From: Tolypothrix brevis GSE-NOS-MK-07-07A
GTDB lineage: Bacteria; Cyanobacteriota; Cyanobacteriia; Cyanobacteriales; Nostocaceae
Direction of reading: 5' to 3'
Assembly: GCA_019358985.1 (NCBI GenBank)
Contig: JAHHIJ010000046.1
Location: forward strand, 1 to 46,735
Length of the DNA stretch: 46,735 bases
Part shown: in pieces, positions 20,663-26,950 of the stretch
How the letters are laid out: every line of letters starts with the position of its first letter
Position numbering within the stretch: the stretch's first letter is position 1
Notes under the pieces: generated by a model
Told to the model about the DNA's origin: nothing
The model's database searches: none
The model's input: only the letters and a program-made list of their open reading frames with translations
Made by a program: the position numbers and the translations under genes

Positions 20663-21472
20663 TCATTCTTTGGGAGTAGCTGATATGTCAGAGGGAAAAA
20701 ATTCTAGCCGATAGCGATAAAGTGCGACTGGTTGAGAGCCAGATTTAAAGTAATCTGGATCTTGAGGAGAAAGGTAGACAGCAGTAACTTGATCTGCCTC
20801 TATCACTGGATTGGATGTAGAAAGTTTGCGGTAAGCGGTTGTTGATTCTACGGAGTTGAAATAAGGATTAGAGCCACCTTTAAATAGTTGCTGAAAGACT
20901 TCTGTAGTGATAAACTGATTATCAGGTGTAGTTTCGGTAGCCCGTGCGGTGACAATAGAAACTAACTGAAGATTGCCTTTTAATAACGTAATTTGACGAT
21001 TAGGCGATTTTGGATCTACTTTTACTGATAACACGCGATCGCCTAAATAAGTCCGCGCCAAATTCAAGCTATTAAATGCCCTATCCGCAACTACAACGGG
21101 CAATTTTGTATCTATCCAAGGTATGAATTTTAAACCCGTGATGGGTAATTGCTCTTTCACAAATCGTACTGGAAAACTCACAGGTTGATTTAGCTGTCGG
21201 CGATTCCCTTCAAAACCTGGTGTAACTATATCTGGTGCTAAAGGTGCAGCCAAATCGATTAAAGTACTTTTAAGGTGCCAATTACCCGCCATCCAATCAG
21301 GATAAATCAAATCACCTTCAGGCGATGCTTCCAAGGGGAGCGATGGCACCGAAGTTATTTTTTCCCACCGAGGAAAATTAGCCAACCTTTGGCTTAATTC
21401 TCCCGCTGCTGCTTCAGAAGCAGCAGATAGCAGAAATAAAAAAATTAAGCAAACGCTTAAAATCGCTTTCAT
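20663..21472 (-). CDS. DUF6816-like exported (lumen-type) protein
   Basis: 269 residues with a signal peptide (KAILSVCLIFLFLLSAASEA, cleaved near AAAGE) followed by ELSQRLANFPRWEKI and the conserved YPDWMAGNWHLKSTLIDLAAPLAPDI region, here spanning about residues 57-82. This pattern is shared by cyanobacterial proteins and plant thylakoid lumen proteins of the DUF6816 group, as far as I recall. Mature protein expected in the lumen or periplasm. Function unknown. The start codon is preceded by AAGGAATTAG-type sequence on the opposite strand, so no clear Shine-Dalgarno. Confidence 0.75.
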   Translation of the reverse strand: MKAILSVCLIFLFLLSAASEAAAGELSQRLANFPRWEKITSVPSLPLEASPEGDLIYPDWMAGNWHLKSTLIDLAAPLAPDIVTPGFEGNRRQLNQPVSFPVRFVKEQLPITGLKFIPWIDTKLPVVVADRAFNSLNLARTYLGDRVLSVKVDPKSPNRQITLLKGNLQLVSIVTARATETTPDNQFITTEVFQQLFKGGSNPYFNSVESTTAYRKLSTSNPVIEADQVTAVYLSPQDPDYFKSGSQPVALYRYRLEFFPSDISATPKE

Positions 21473-22133: not shown

Positions 22134-23006
22134 ATGACCATATCTAGCTCTTTTACGGATTTTTCCTTAGCGGAGTTATTCCAATTGATTGACCAAGGGC
22201 GAAAATCTGGCTGTTTAAGTGTCTGTACTTTACCAGATATTCGTGTTGCTGGATCTAAATCCCTACATTACTATATTTGGTTTCGTCAAGGGCGTATTGT
22301 CGCTGCGGCTAATCGCTTAAATGGTCAGGAATTAGTATCTAAAATAATCAAAAGAAAGTGGTGTAACCCATCTAGAGAAAATATTTCTATAAGTGCTACA
22401 GGAAGACCTTTAGGTTTAGAGTTGAAAACCGAAGGATTGCTGAGTGCTGAACAACTGAACTTATTATTTGCTAGTCAACTACAACAAGTTCGGCAATTGT
22501 TTGAAATTCAAAGCGGTGTATTTAAACTTGATAGCAAGGCTACTTTGCCCTGGACAGAGATGACAGGATTAAGCCTAAGAGCTACTGAAGTAGCGCTAAT
22601 GGCTTTGAGAGCATTGAAAAACTGGGAAGTATTAGCTGATGTACTTCCAGATGTCAGTTCTGGCGTTAAAAGTATTACACAAAACAAACCACAATTTCGC
22701 TTGAATCCTTTCGAGTGGCAAGTGTGGGAGTTTGCGAATGGAACTGTTGATTTAAGTGCGATCGCTTTTCAACTCAATCAACCTACATTAATAGTTCAGC
22801 AAGCTGCTTTCCGGCTAATGTTAGCAGATTTGGTAGAAGAAGTTTCTTTGCAACAATGTACACCCGAACTAAATAATTACCCGATGGATGAAACTCAAGG
22901 AAATGCTTTCAATTGTGAGCCAAAAAAAGCCCCAGAAGCAAATATGCTGAAGGTAAGTGCAGCATTTTTAGAAAATTTAGTCGGGTTTTTAAGGAGTAAA
23001 GCTTAA
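22134..23006 (+). CDS. DUF4388 (PATAN-like) domain protein
   Basis: 290 residues. The start TISSSFTDFSLAELFQLIDQ followed by GRKSGCLSV and YIWFRQGRIVAA is the hallmark of DUF4388/PATAN domains, named after the N-terminus of the heterocyst pattern protein PatA and found in bacterial signalling and motility proteins. The second half (about 190-250) has a winged-helix-like FEWQVWEFANGTVDLSAIAFQL block, often seen attached to DUF4388. The stop codon overlaps the ATG of the GTPase gene by one base, so the two are coupled. I infer a signalling or scaffold role for the GTPase; this is not shown by sequence alone. Confidence 0.85.
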   Translation: MTISSSFTDFSLAELFQLIDQGRKSGCLSVCTLPDIRVAGSKSLHYYIWFRQGRIVAAANRLNGQELVSKIIKRKWCNPSRENISISATGRPLGLELKTEGLLSAEQLNLLFASQLQQVRQLFEIQSGVFKLDSKATLPWTEMTGLSLRATEVALMALRALKNWEVLADVLPDVSSGVKSITQNKPQFRLNPFEWQVWEFANGTVDLSAIAFQLNQPTLIVQQAAFRLMLADLVEEVSLQQCTPELNNYPMDETQGNAFNCEPKKAPEANMLKVSAAFLENLVGFLRSKA

Positions 23007-23539
23007 TGGAAATCCTACGCATAGTAATTACAGGTGGCGTAGGTGCAGGAAAAACAAGCTTGATTCGCACAATAAGTGAAATTGATGTTGTTAACACAGA
23101 TAAGGAAGTTACAGATGAACTAGCAGAAATGAAGGCGAAAACTACGGTAGCTATGGACTTTGGGCGGATAACCATAGCAGCCAATCAATCACTGCATCTT
23201 TATGGGACACCAGGACAAACGCGATTTGACTTTATGTGGGACATCCTGATTGCTAAAGCTCAAGCTTACATTTTGTTAGTAGCTGCACACCGCCCCGATC
23301 ATTTCCGTTATGGTCGTAAAATTTTCAAGTTTATGAATGAAAGGGTGCAAATTCCTTATTTAATTGGGGTGACTCATACTGATTGCGCGGATGCTTGGGA
23401 ACTCGAAGATGTGGCGTTAGCTTTGGGATTTGGGGATGACAGTACTCGACCGCCTTTGATAGCTGTAAATGCTACCGAAAGAGCTTCAGTAAAAGAAGCA
23501 TTAATGGCGATCGTTTTAGAATTAGCCAAATCTCGCTAG
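23006..23539 (+). CDS. Small Ras-like GTPase (MglA/Gtr-type)
   Basis: 177 residues, a minimal G domain. G1 is GGVGAGKT (10-17), G2 threonine lies at TT (46-47), G3 is YGTPGQTRF (66-74) and G4 is THTD (123-126). GTPGQ rather than DTAGQ is typical of bacterial MglA-like and archaeal small GTPases. Such proteins switch between GTP and GDP states with a roadblock/LC7 partner as activator or regulator; one is encoded downstream. It overlaps the DUF4388 gene and is followed by a 98-bp gap with a long inverted repeat. Confidence 0.9.
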   Translation: MEILRIVITGGVGAGKTSLIRTISEIDVVNTDKEVTDELAEMKAKTTVAMDFGRITIAANQSLHLYGTPGQTRFDFMWDILIAKAQAYILLVAAHRPDHFRYGRKIFKFMNERVQIPYLIGVTHTDCADAWELEDVALALGFGDDSTRPPLIAVNATERASVKEALMAIVLELAKSR

Positions 23540-23554
23540 CATCAACCTTAACAA

Positions 23555-23636
23555 ACAAAGTAAATGCAAAAAAAAATCCCAAAAGTAAAAAATGATTCTT
23601 GCTTTTTTTCGCTTTTTCCTTTTAACTTTACTTTGT
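23555..23636. other. Long imperfect inverted repeat between GTPase and roadblock genes
   Basis: ACAAAGTAAA (23555-23564) and TTTACTTTGT (23627-23636) are exact complements. The A-rich and T-rich sequences between them continue the pairing loosely around ATGATTCTTGC. It could act as an attenuating hairpin or RNA stability element that sets the ratio of GTPase to its partner. Confidence 0.5.
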
Positions 23637-23760
23637 CTTGGTAGTAAATTATCGAAACGTATGTGATGGAAATAACTCTATTGCAATAAGCAGTTTACCG
23701 CTTATGCCTCTAGGCAAAATCCTGAAGCTACTCGCAGAGGCATTTCAAAAAACGCCTACT

Positions 23761-24000
23761 GAGTCTGTAAATGCATCAAAATTGCCAACTTCGGAGAATA
23801 CGACTTTACCGACAACTACCGAAAATACTGAAACGTTACCACTAATTACAAAATCTCCGTCACCAATAAGTACGGAAAACCAATCAAAATTGTCAACCTC
23901 GGAGAATACGACTTTACCGACAACTACCGAAAATACTGAAACATTACCACTAGTGACGGAATCTCCGTCACTAGTAAACACGGAAAACACGGAAATAGAT
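23761..24000 (+). repeat. Tandem duplication of about 120 bp, in frame with the roadblock gene
   Basis: Two copies of a roughly 40-codon unit (SKLPTSENTTLPTTTENTET then LPLITKSPS..., and SKLSTSENTTLPTTTENTET then LPLVTESPS...) lie side by side. The first starts near 23775 and the second near 23886. Both are open in the frame that continues into the LC7 domain without a stop, and encode Thr/Ser/Glu-rich linker sequence. The duplication is recent, as the two copies differ at few positions. Confidence 0.75.
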
Positions 24001-24027
24001 TTACCAATAATTTTGGAGGAAAAAATC

Positions 24028-24396
24028 ATGATTAATAGTTCGATGCTACAAGACGAGCTGCAAAACTTTGTCAGCGGCACCTCTGAGGTTCAAGGTGCAG
24101 CCTTAGTCAGTCCTGATGGTTTGGCTTTAGCTTCGGTGCTACCCGGAGGTATGGACGACGAACGTACCGCCGCAATGTCTGCATCTATGCTTTCTTTGGG
24201 GGAACGCATCGGACGCGAACTCGCTCGCGGTAACGTTGAGCGAATTGTGGTGGAAGGTGAAAAAGGCTACGGAGTTTTGGTTGGCTGTAGTGGTGATGCT
24301 GTTTTATTAGTTCTCGCTAATGCATCAGTCAAACAAGGCTTGTTGTTTTTAGAAATTAAACGCGCTGTTGCCAAAATTGCACCTTTGCTTGGTTAG
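24028..24396 (+). CDS. Roadblock/LC7 domain protein (MglB-like)
   Basis: 122 residues from ATG 24028, which has a strong GGAGG 8 bases upstream. Roadblock features: MLQDELQNFVSGTSEVQGAA, SPDGLALASVLPGG, ERIGRELARGNVERIVVEGEKG and VLVLANASVKQGLLFLEIKRA are each recognisable in order. These form the beta sheet and helices of the LC7 fold. LC7 proteins dimerise and act as GAPs or regulators of MglA-like GTPases. An upstream in-frame extension to ATG 23704 (MPLGKILKLLAEAF and a Thr-rich linker) would give about 230 residues. Both forms are possible, and the Shine-Dalgarno favours the short one. Confidence 0.88.
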   Translation: MINSSMLQDELQNFVSGTSEVQGAALVSPDGLALASVLPGGMDDERTAAMSASMLSLGERIGRELARGNVERIVVEGEKGYGVLVGCSGDAVLLVLANASVKQGLLFLEIKRAVAKIAPLLG

Positions 24397-24446
24397 CTAA
24401 TAACACGAAGCAACCCGTATTCAGATTTGTGGATTTCCGATTTTCT

Positions 24447-24508
24447 CTCTTAAATTGCCATTCTTAATTTACAACTAATTTGGAACTTGAAGTTTGGCAA
24501 TTTAAAAG
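24447..24508. other. Inverted repeat before the globin gene
   Basis: TTAAATTGCCA (24450-24460) and TGGCAATTTAA (24495-24505) are perfect 11-bp complements 34 bases apart, followed by an A-rich run. The position, about 105 bp before the globin start, fits a processing hairpin or an operator. Confidence 0.45.
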
Positions 24509-24613
24509 AAAAAATAAGGACAATTTTCTCAGTTCCAAGCTGATGATTTATCAGGGCTGGCTCTACTGTAATCAAAACAGTTGGTTTTTATTAATCTTAG
24601 GAGAAACGCAAGA

Positions 24614-25168
24614 ATGACTTTAGAACCACACTCCTTTATGTCCATAATGGAAAAGCGTATTGGCTTTACAGATGAGGACAAAGCTCTACTAAAATCTGAG
24701 GCAAGCTGGGGAGTAGAAATTGCTCCAGAGATGGCAGACCACTTTTATGCTTACCTTGAGCGCGACTCAGAAATGAATGGTATTTTACACGCTACTGAAG
24801 GGCGGATTCATCGCTTGCGGGAAACCTTTGTTGAGTGGTTTTATGAGATGTTTACAGGCATGGATGAGTGGGGAAATGACTATGCCGATCGCCGCTGGAA
24901 AATTGGTCTAATTCACGTCCGTATTGGCATTGGACCTCAGCATGTTGTGCCGGCGATGGCAACGGTAATTCATCAGGTAGGTAAACGCTTAAAAAATGAT
25001 GGTAAAAGCGAAGACTTGAAAGAGTCTCTTAGCCGAATTTGTATGATTGACTTGGCTTTTATTGAACAAGCTTACGTAGAAGTTTCTTCGACGGCTGTAC
25101 TTAATGAAACTGGCTGGTCAGAAGCTCTATTTAGGCGTTTAATTGTTACTGGTGCAAAAGCGATGTAA
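24614..25168 (+). CDS. Protoglobin / globin-sensor domain protein
   Basis: 184 residues from ATG 24614 (MTLEPHSFMSIMEKRIGF), with AGGAG upstream. It matches single-domain protoglobins: RIHRLRETFVEWFYEMFTG (the C/E helix region), YADRRWKIGLIHVRIGIGPQ with the proximal haem His in IGLIHVRIG, and the following HVVPAMATVIHQVGKRL helices. It should bind haem and O2, NO or CO. There is no attached signalling domain, so the output probably passes to neighbours in the cluster. An upstream TTG-started extension exists but adds only 11 residues with no signal. Confidence 0.85.
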   Translation: MTLEPHSFMSIMEKRIGFTDEDKALLKSEASWGVEIAPEMADHFYAYLERDSEMNGILHATEGRIHRLRETFVEWFYEMFTGMDEWGNDYADRRWKIGLIHVRIGIGPQHVVPAMATVIHQVGKRLKNDGKSEDLKESLSRICMIDLAFIEQAYVEVSSTAVLNETGWSEALFRRLIVTGAKAM

Positions 25169-25181
25169 CACTACACATATT

Positions 25182-25202
25182 CCTCAGGTTTTCAGCCTGA
25201 GG
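25182..25202. other. Intergenic hairpin between globin and V4R genes
   Basis: CCTCAGG-TTTTCAG-CCTGAGG, a perfect 7-bp stem 13 bp after the globin stop. No T-tract, so read-through into the V4R gene is expected; it may protect the upstream mRNA end. Confidence 0.5.
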
Positions 25203-25239
25203 CTAGACAAATAAAACTTCATTTGTAGAAAACTCATTT

Positions 25240-25701
25240 ATGTTACGTCCAAAACTCGGAGATTTTAGCAGTATAGTTTGTTTCAGGTCGGCAATTGTCG
25301 GCATGGAAGATGCTTTGGGTGAAAAAGCAACAGCGATCGCTTTAATTGCAGCCGGTCGCAGCCGTGGTAAACATTTGGCACAAGAATTAGGTTTAACAGT
25401 CGCAAACTCGTCTTTAGACGATATTGCCTCAAAACTTGGATTTGCTTTAGGTAAAGATGGCACTCGTTTATGCATCATTAATCGTATCGAAGCTCAAGAA
25501 AATGTTATCAAAGTTTACACTTCGGAAACTCTATGTTCTGCCGGGGAAGCTTTAGGTTCAGATCGTAAATGTACTTACACCCTTGGCGCTATTTGGGGGG
25601 CATTAGAGCAAACCGTTGGTAAGCGCTTCCAAGGAAAACACGTAGAATCTGTGCTTCGTGGTGGTGAGTACGATGTATTTGAGTTTACTGAATTGAGATA
25701 A
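25240..25701 (+). CDS. V4R-like (4-vinyl reductase type) small-molecule-binding protein
   Basis: 153 residues. The middle (IAAGRSRGKHLAQELGL) and the C-terminal half (SETLCSAGEALGS, CTYTLGAIWGALEQTVGKRF, HVESVLRGGEYDVFEF) fit the V4R domain found in BchJ, in XylR-type sensor domains and in stand-alone hydrocarbon-binding proteins. The two Cys (in LCSAG and KCTYT) may bind a metal or be redox-active. Its place at the end of the GTPase-globin cluster suggests a ligand-sensing input. A tnpB element is inserted directly after the stop. Confidence 0.78.
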   Translation: MLRPKLGDFSSIVCFRSAIVGMEDALGEKATAIALIAAGRSRGKHLAQELGLTVANSSLDDIASKLGFALGKDGTRLCIINRIEAQENVIKVYTSETLCSAGEALGSDRKCTYTLGAIWGALEQTVGKRFQGKHVESVLRGGEYDVFEFTELR

Positions 25702-25813: not shown

Positions 25814-26950
25814 ATGCTAGTTCTCGAATTCAAGGTTTATGCAAAACCAGCCCAGCTTCAAGCAATTGATGAAGCGATCAGAATTTGTAAATTCATTCGC
25901 AACAAATCAATTCGGCTGTGGATGGATGGCGGTGCAAAATCTTGGTTCGATCTTTCCAAATACTGTGCTTTATGGGCTAAAGAGTTCAACTTTGCAAATA
26001 AGTTGGGTGCAATGGCTCGGCAAGCTAGCGCGGAGAGAGCGTGGGCAGCAATTTCTCGGTTCTATGACAACGTAAAAAAAGGGATTAAAGGCAAGAAAGT
26101 TGGCTTCCCAAGATTCCAAAAAGATTGCCGATCCGTTGAATACAAAACAAATTCTTGGAAGCTATCAAACAACCGCAAAACAATCACTTTTACCGATAAA
26201 TGTGGCATTGGTAGATTAAAAATGAAAGGTACTCGTGACCTTAATTTTTACTCCTCCGAACAAATCAAGCGAGTACGATTAATTAAACACGCTGATGGTT
26301 ATTACGCTCAGTTTTGCGTAAGTATTGATCGTACTGAGCAAGTTGCAATAACAGGTAAAACGATTGGATTAGATGTTGGTTTAAAAGAGTTTTACACCGA
26401 TTCAAATGGCGAGATGGTTCCCAATCCTAAGTTTATGCGTAAGGGTGAAGTGCGGTTAAAGCGCGCTCAACGCTTAGTAAGCCGGAAAACAAAAGGCGGA
26501 ATAAATCGCCGTAAAGCACGAGTGATTTTAGGTAAGCGACACCTCAAAATAAGTAGACAGCGTAAAGACCATGCTATTAAGTTGGCAAGGTGCGTAATCA
26601 CATTAAACGATGTAGTAGTCTATGAAGATTTGAGAGTGTCCAATATGGTTAAAAATCACTGCCTTGCAAAATCAATTAGCGATGCCTCTTGGTATCAATT
26701 TCGAGTATTTCTCGAATATTTCGGAAAAGTATTTGGTAGGATTACGATTGCAGTGAATCCTGCCTATACTAGCCAAGAGTGCCATAGCTGCGGAACGATT
26801 GTTAAGAAAAGCCTATCCACGAGAACACATATATGTAAGTGTGGTTGCGAGATGGATAGGGATCATAACGCAGCGATTAACATCTTAAATCGCGGGATAA
26901 GTACGGCAGGTCATGTCGGAACTTCGATCCTGGAGATCGTAAACGCTTAG
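25814..26950 (+). CDS. tnpB: TnpB RNA-guided nuclease (IS200/IS605 OrfB)
   Basis: 378 residues. N-terminal OrfB_IS605 region LEFKVYAKPAQLQAIDEAI; RuvC residues D187 (TIGLDVGLKEF), E271 (VVYEDLRV) and D350 (MDRDHNAAINI); zinc ribbon C323/C326 (CHSCG) with CKCGC at 341-345. All are intact, so it should be an active nuclease. Strong GGGAGG Shine-Dalgarno. It differs from the tnpB at 10950 in family and flanking ends, so the two arrived separately. No tnpA. Confidence 0.93.
   Translation: MLVLEFKVYAKPAQLQAIDEAIRICKFIRNKSIRLWMDGGAKSWFDLSKYCALWAKEFNFANKLGAMARQASAERAWAAISRFYDNVKKGIKGKKVGFPRFQKDCRSVEYKTNSWKLSNNRKTITFTDKCGIGRLKMKGTRDLNFYSSEQIKRVRLIKHADGYYAQFCVSIDRTEQVAITGKTIGLDVGLKEFYTDSNGEMVPNPKFMRKGEVRLKRAQRLVSRKTKGGINRRKARVILGKRHLKISRQRKDHAIKLARCVITLNDVVVYEDLRVSNMVKNHCLAKSISDASWYQFRVFLEYFGKVFGRITIAVNPAYTSQECHSCGTIVKKSLSTRTHICKCGCEMDRDHNAAINILNRGISTAGHVGTSILEIVNA

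Follow-up and report, generated by a model that had tools for sequence, protein, structure and literature searches.

A cluster of five neighbouring genes in the cyanobacterium Tolypothrix brevis GSE-NOS-MK-07-07A is interpreted here, with moderate confidence, as a modular ligand-gated small-GTPase switch, in which the signal would pass from a sensor to a roadblock protein, from there to a GTPase, and finally to a PATAN protein. The cluster occupies positions 22134-25701 of a stretch of 46,735 nucleotides (contig JAHHIJ010000046.1, assembly GCA_019358985.1, positions 1-46,735; the whole stretch is called the window below), where the list of open reading frames (ORFs) contains five on the plus strand, designated P, G, R, H and V in that order. 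They encode a DUF4388/PATAN protein of 290 amino acids (P; 22134-23006), a small Ras-like GTPase of 177 amino acids resembling MglA Group 5 (G; 23006-23539), a roadblock/LC7 protein (R; 23704-24396), a single-domain protoglobin of 184 amino acids (H; 24614-25168) and a protein of 153 amino acids with a predicted V4R/TRAPPC3 fold (V; 25240-25701). A first-pass annotation had described five same-strand genes, the first two overlapping by one base, and both coordinates and strand were borne out: the stop codon of P (TAA, 23004-23006) shares its last base with the start codon of G (ATG, 23006-23008). The sole roadblock match of the 6.5-Mb genome (E≤0.001) fell within these 3.6 kb, as did the sole matches to G (E≤0.001), H (E≤1e-15) and V (E≤1e-8), so the cluster is more than a chance assembly; DUF4388 had seven matches in the genome.

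Conservation of the linkage was surveyed in 291 cyanobacterial genomes spread across the class, in which globin, V4R-like and GTPase genes were present in 66, 73 and 105 genomes, respectively (the GTPase in 19 of 39 close relatives). Out of 172 regions around all H, V and G hits, 160 were fetched and their ORFs labelled with local profiles; a block was defined as an unbroken same-strand run, which is conservative in that a single spurious ORF breaks it. The first-pass annotation had named such a survey beforehand as the result that could overturn its proposal, should the genes turn out to lie apart in relatives. They were kept together: same-strand GTPase genes lay no more than 6 kb from 64 of 75 globin hits and from 55 of 89 V4R-like hits and, conversely, a globin or V4R-like gene of the same strand lay that close to 100 of 136 GTPase hits. 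At the 130 cyanobacterial GTPase loci (L112-L241), R was part of 114 blocks and P of 110; 96 blocks had H and/or V, and 85 had P, R, G and a sensor together, these 85 coming from 12 families (78 genomes in 36 genera). All five kinds of gene shared a block, as they do in the window, in 20 genomes (9 genera, 4 families), and among four same-genus relatives P, G, R and V stood together in all four, joined by H in three. The GTPase was present in 65 of the 66 globin genomes relative to 40 of the 225 genomes lacking a globin, a comparison not corrected for kinship. The earlier proposal of a ligand-responsive GTPase switch with globin and V4R inputs thus held as regards a GTPase module linked to these proteins (96 of 130 blocks), while its two inputs proved to be mostly alternatives, 43 blocks having H only, 33 V only and 20 both.

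The order of genes varied (HRGP in 32 loci, VRGP in 15, RGP in 12, HVRGP in 11, PGRV in 5, and many rarer orders) with the linkage retained, so that a single fixed block passed down by descent would not account for the co-location. R was the immediate neighbour of V in 51 of 56 cases and of H in 47 of 65; the 11 HVRGP blocks, in which V stands between H and R, make up most of the 18 H cases in which R was not the neighbour. Two sensor-R pairs were present in 6 of the 130 loci (VRHRGP and VRVRGP twice each, HRVRGP and VRVRGPH once each), and because of these paired repeats the gene strings suggest that a sensor and its roadblock protein form a unit. P and G were neighbours in either order, with an overlap in 11 of 16 PG pairs; in 58 non-cyanobacterial loci, drawn from the 80 best of 204 relatives, P was directly upstream of G in 56 as read from gene strings. 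Co-location, a sensor gene beside that of the roadblock protein, a GTPase gene beside that of the PATAN protein, alternative sensors in the same place and invariant haem-ligand and GTPase residues could all be read directly at the level of sequence. In one Chloroflexi metagenome-assembled genome (MAG), a DUF4388-GTPase fusion ORF of 460 amino acids (L058:529-1911) precedes two roadblock ORFs, an arrangement for which an assembly frameshift is possible; no sensor-roadblock fusion was found among 8450 ORFs labelled with local profiles. A V4R protein directly followed G in at least 3 of the 58 non-cyanobacterial loci (L077, L088 and L100, chosen for scanning because they looked alike), one of them above and two below the Pfam cut-off. 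Similarly starting ORFs followed the PATAN-GTPase pair in many of the loci L055-L111 (mostly Chloroflexota), and the copy in L060 is an alpha/beta hydrolase. A VRGP block (L050) was also present in a MAG labelled Tatlockia sp., which points either to transfer or to mis-binning of a cyanobacterial contig.

In a roadblock tree of 116 rows, from which identical cores and ORFs shorter than 110 amino acids were left out, the H and V neighbour labels clustered beyond shuffles (0 of 500 as low); at least 15 label changes were counted, of which well-supported branches force only 3. Neither strict co-descent of roadblock and sensor nor frequent swapping is fully demonstrated by this pattern, in which labels cluster and yet change at least 15 times.

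A third kind of candidate sensor, which the first-pass annotation had not foreseen, emerged when flanking ORFs lying up to two genes and 500 nt away from the blocks were clustered (loci L100-L241). This gave a single large family of 24 ORFs downstream of blocks, and the four members scanned were hemerythrins above the Pfam cut-off; no further conserved core gene was seen in these loci, the other same-strand flanking families having at most 8 members. By profile, hemerythrin-like ORFs accompanied 27 of the 130 GTPase loci and none of 30 GTPase-free globin/V4R regions; three of the 27 did not show in the gene strings because other ORFs overlapped them, and the copy at L194 was not directly beside the block. 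The Tolypothrix genome has one hemerythrin match, on a different contig from the cassette. At least 97% of 29 hemerythrin-like ORFs had His26, His63, Glu67, His86, His124 and Asp129. A small protein encoded beside RGP blocks without H or V (L200:2063-2632 and L202:6669-7142) is possibly another V4R-like sensor; the one from L200 matches NitrOD5 weakly (E 0.016, below cut-off).

The GTPase was assigned from Pfam, alignment and a motif census, as its Pfam matches were weak and spread over several G-domain families (ATP_bind_1 2.6e-12, Roc 7.8e-6, Ras 2.8e-5). The first-pass annotation had called G1, G3 and G4 intact, which is accurate for G1 (GGVGAGKT, a canonical P-loop); G3 reads GTPGQ, as in 127 of 136 GTPase ORFs, and not DxxG, and G4 reads THTD, not NKxD. 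"Intact" is therefore inexact for G4, even though its histidine is kept: among the 133 cyanobacterial relatives that reach 150 amino acids (3 of the 136 ORFs being shorter), His124 occurred in 132 and position 123 was Thr in 114 and Ser in 19, giving the form T/S-H-x-D, versus NKQD in 54 of the 58 non-cyanobacterial relatives. In the G2 region, T46 and T47 were each present in 129 of 133, so that the residue beside the G2 threonine is Thr. MglA Groups 2-5 are described as having the GTPGQ form of G3, Thr at the arginine-finger place and an Asp-Gly pair in the partner roadblock protein (PMC4316618; this and the other articles are cited here from excerpts), and the first two features, common to all these groups, were found in G. 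The canonical G4 ([NT]KxD) reported there for Group 5 was absent from the cyanobacterial set, and the THxD GTPases would form a diverged, MglA-like clade that may or may not belong to Group 5. Because the guanine-reading lysine of G4 has been lost, nucleotide choice may be altered or the base contacted differently.

R matched the Robl_LC7 domain (Pfam, 1.2e-16) and its core has the Asp-Gly pair expected of an MglB/roadblock partner, kept in 129 of 129 relatives, in agreement with the LC7 protein described beside the GTPase. The core starts at ATG 24028, and an in-frame upstream ATG at 23704 (MPLGKILKLL...) is common to Nostocaceae relatives, in whose R frames an upstream segment resembling M-x-LGKILKLL is conserved and followed by a variable linker. 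R thus probably has an N-terminal helix, MPLGKILKLLAEAFQK, and a linker, the coding part of which holds two 108-bp tandem repeats (23775-23988, plus strand). TTG 23638 was also considered as a start and is not favoured. A GGAGG sequence at 24015-24019, 8 nt ahead of ATG 24028, suggests that a short form starting there is made as well. In comparison with the four same-genus relatives, 0, 2, 0 and 0 of the first 16 residues differed. Over the whole extension of 71-72 residues there were 4 to 19 differences, with fewer silent changes (in 0 to 7 codons); in the 120-residue core 4 to 6 residues differed, with 20 to 29 silent changes. These substitution counts point to a conserved helix and a loose linker, and the helix could serve as a membrane or partner anchor.

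H matched Pfam Protoglobin (9.6e-20) and, over its whole length, the globin Tlr1989 (PDB 8h17, E 1.8e-85). His101, by analogy with the protoglobin family the proximal haem ligand, was present in 75 of 75 relatives, in agreement with the haem-type globin with proximal His described earlier; the same holds for Tyr45 (75 of 75), which presumably also serves the haem. The tail beyond the Pfam domain (residues 158-184) was about as conserved as the rest of the protein, as would be predicted for a partner-binding surface, and may be one. A 2023 paper reportedly deals with a Thermosynechococcus single-domain globin. The 194-amino-acid T. elongatus protoglobin listed in PMC1457004 would be Tlr1989.

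V had been called a V4R ligand-binding protein, and the assignment to V4R stands by predicted fold and barely by sequence, as no Pfam V4R match of the window protein reached the cut-off. Weak V4R matches (E≤0.5) were obtained for 7 of 22 relatives, with a best value of 7e-4, and a profile search for solved relatives gave none that was convincing (best E 0.19); identification by sequence alone was judged insufficient and was replaced by the structural model. The AlphaFold2 (AF2) model, built from 11 sequences (pLDDT 80.1, pTM 0.79), matched in Foldseek the V4R domains of the phenol sensors MopR/PoxR (from 4e-6, 5kbh; TM about 0.7 on the query) and next TRAPPC3/Bet3 (2j3w, 1.6e-5; chain F of yeast TRAPPIII-Ypt1, 7kmt, 3.5e-5), and the V4R/TRAPPC3 fold can be considered established at the level of the predicted model. 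Residues C14, E96 and C99 were kept in 77 of 77 relatives.

P scored 89.3 bits against the Pfam DUF4388 cut-off of 25 (E 2.6e-25), and DUF4388 was its only Pfam domain, with no receiver domain. The AF2 model (pLDDT 84, pTM 0.75) predicts a PATAN domain, a winged-helix-like segment, a disordered linker and a C-terminal helix, and a Foldseek comparison with the PDB returned nothing at E≤0.001. Leu286 was kept in 113 of 114 relatives. P may dock on the pilus motor, by analogy with PATAN-REC proteins of Synechocystis, or bind DNA.

In the proposed switch, the most economical account of the cluster, the sensor would be a protoglobin (for O2, NO or CO), a V4R-fold protein (for some small molecule) or, in some species, a hemerythrin-like protein. 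It would alter the action of the roadblock dimer on the MglA Group 5-type GTPase, which would shift between GTP and GDP forms and in turn work together with the PATAN/DUF4388 protein, or by way of it; P would then be the output or a scaffold. The physical complexes, the direction of the signal, the identity of the ligand and the output are inferred, and an output in motility, heterocyst pattern or redox response is a guess.

A number of observations weigh against this interpretation. The module is patchy, 186 of the 291 genomes having no GTPase, and H and V are more often alternatives than two fixed inputs. Altogether, 34 of the 130 GTPase loci had neither H nor V in the block, 15 of which run up to the limit of the sequence that was read. 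Out of 75 globin hits, 11 had no GTPase within 6 kb (with a GTPase elsewhere in ten of those genomes), as did 34 of 89 V4R-like hits; 8 of 11 globin-only regions read held H alone among the cassette genes, and 16 of 19 V4R-only regions held V alone, from which it follows that the sensors also exist outside the block. G4 of the GTPase is non-canonical, and the roadblock tree is poorly resolved, with 60 of 113 inner branches open. The hemerythrin-like ORFs (for example, L191:2816-3250) carry Asn82 in at least 97% of 29 where bacteriohemerythrins are expected to have a His iron ligand, so that O2 binding by them is uncertain. Finally, the gaps in the window are wide (164 nt between G and ATG 23704 of R, 217 nt between R and H), and a consensus scan of the window found 7 promoter-like sites versus a shuffle mean of 10.1 and 1 terminator-like site versus 3.6; with wide gaps and a scan no richer than shuffles, co-transcription is unproved. 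The scan, having no excess over shuffles, was uninformative in either direction and was dropped as evidence for separate promoters or terminators.

Part of this evidence bears on other readings of the cluster. It is possible, though doubtful, that the block is a conventional MglA-like polarity or type IV pilus module in which the PATAN protein binds the pilus motor and the sensors merely tune it, a reading compatible with the switch. PATAN-REC proteins bind PilB1 in Synechocystis (PMC9090330) and, according to abstracts, MglA controls pili in Myxococcus, whereas P is DUF4388 only by Pfam, with no receiver domain, and G has Thr at the arginine-finger place of Group 1 MglA. An unlikely variant of the output would be DNA binding by P, making the block a ligand-responsive transcription switch: the helix-strand pattern at about residues 190-240 of the model was read as a winged helix and had weak Foldseek matches to winged-helix domains, but none at E≤0.001, and the weak ones include winged helices of protein complexes. 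Slightly less likely still, the globin and hemerythrin would serve in O2 or NO chemistry, such as storage or NO removal, while a separate MglA/roadblock/PATAN module is merely co-regulated, without physical coupling. Protoglobin and hemerythrin families include O2/NO-binding proteins, and the wide gaps in the window and the 11 of 75 globins without a nearby GTPase fit such a division; it is at odds with a sensor that mostly adjoins R, with duplicated sensor-R pairs, and with a V4R-fold protein in the globin's place. Historical inertia without functional meaning is very improbable: related genomes share blocks and the counts are not independent, but the orders are permuted across 12 families, and the next flanking families have 8 members as against 24 for hemerythrin (L100-L241).

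The fold set of TRAPP-Rab and Asgard proteins (V4R/TRAPPC3, roadblock, which is grouped with longin, and Ras-like GTPase; PMC10933270) recurs in the cassette, an analogy that concerns folds and, for the cassette, composition only. A tentative reading, somewhat less probable than the pilus module and close in standing to the DNA-binding output, would be a TRAPP-like bacterial regulator: a roadblock platform would sit between subunits of V4R/TRAPPC3 fold, through which a bound ligand would control nucleotide exchange on the Ras-like GTPase, and globin could substitute for V4R to give a directly gas-gated switch with altered THxD nucleotide recognition. TRAPP differs in having a longin heterodimer where the cassette has a roadblock protein, and globin can replace V4R here; in Asgard MK-D1, operons generally do not join GTPase genes to such partners (PMC10933270), in contrast to the single block described here. 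It has been proposed that a TRAPP subunit descends from V4R (PMC2253512).

The modular switch has its closest relatives among published systems in MglA Group 5 with MglB/roadblock (Wuichet and Sogaard-Andersen 2014, PMC4316618), which shares the occurrence in Cyanobacteria and Chloroflexi, GTPGQ, Thr for the arginine finger, Asp-Gly and a PATAN neighbour. There, neighbourhoods vary widely, G4 is canonical and not THxD as in the cyanobacterial set, and globin, V4R and hemerythrin go unmentioned in the excerpts; a PATAN neighbour of some Group 5 MglA genes was noted as occasional, whereas the tie is the rule in the relatives read here (110 of 130 and 56 of 58). The actinobacterial conservon CvnA-D (PMC4316618) likewise combines a small GTPase, a roadblock protein and a sensor in one locus, but with a histidine kinase sensor and CvnC in place of globin/V4R and PATAN; no conservon-type histidine kinase with an LPxR tail was seen in the window cluster or the scanned neighbours. 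MopR/PoxR share the V4R fold of V and hold it within a transcription activator, whereas V is free-standing. Tlr1989, of the same single-domain family as H over its whole length, appears in the papers searched as a globin only, with no GTPase link found in open PubMed Central papers among the matches listed. Nor did any of the matches listed there connect an MglA/roadblock locus with globin, V4R or hemerythrin, in agreement to that extent with the first-pass annotation, which knew of no described system of such composition; the PATAN-MglA component had been published in 2014 (PMC4316618). The block hints at an undescribed route by which a bacterial GTPase could respond to gases or small molecules. 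Roadblock-regulated bacterial small GTPases are known and few of their inputs are, and the cassette would offer a testable input set in cyanobacteria, a possible partner for the Thermosynechococcus globin of solved structure, and a bacterial case of V4R, roadblock and Ras-like proteins side by side.

The cluster is flanked upstream by a gene for a DUF6816 protein on the minus strand (20663-21472; Pfam 6.9e-54), and 112 bp downstream of V by a TnpB/IS605 OrfB-type ORF (25814-26950; Pfam OrfB_IS605 2.4e-24, Cas12f1-like_TNB 6.6e-22).

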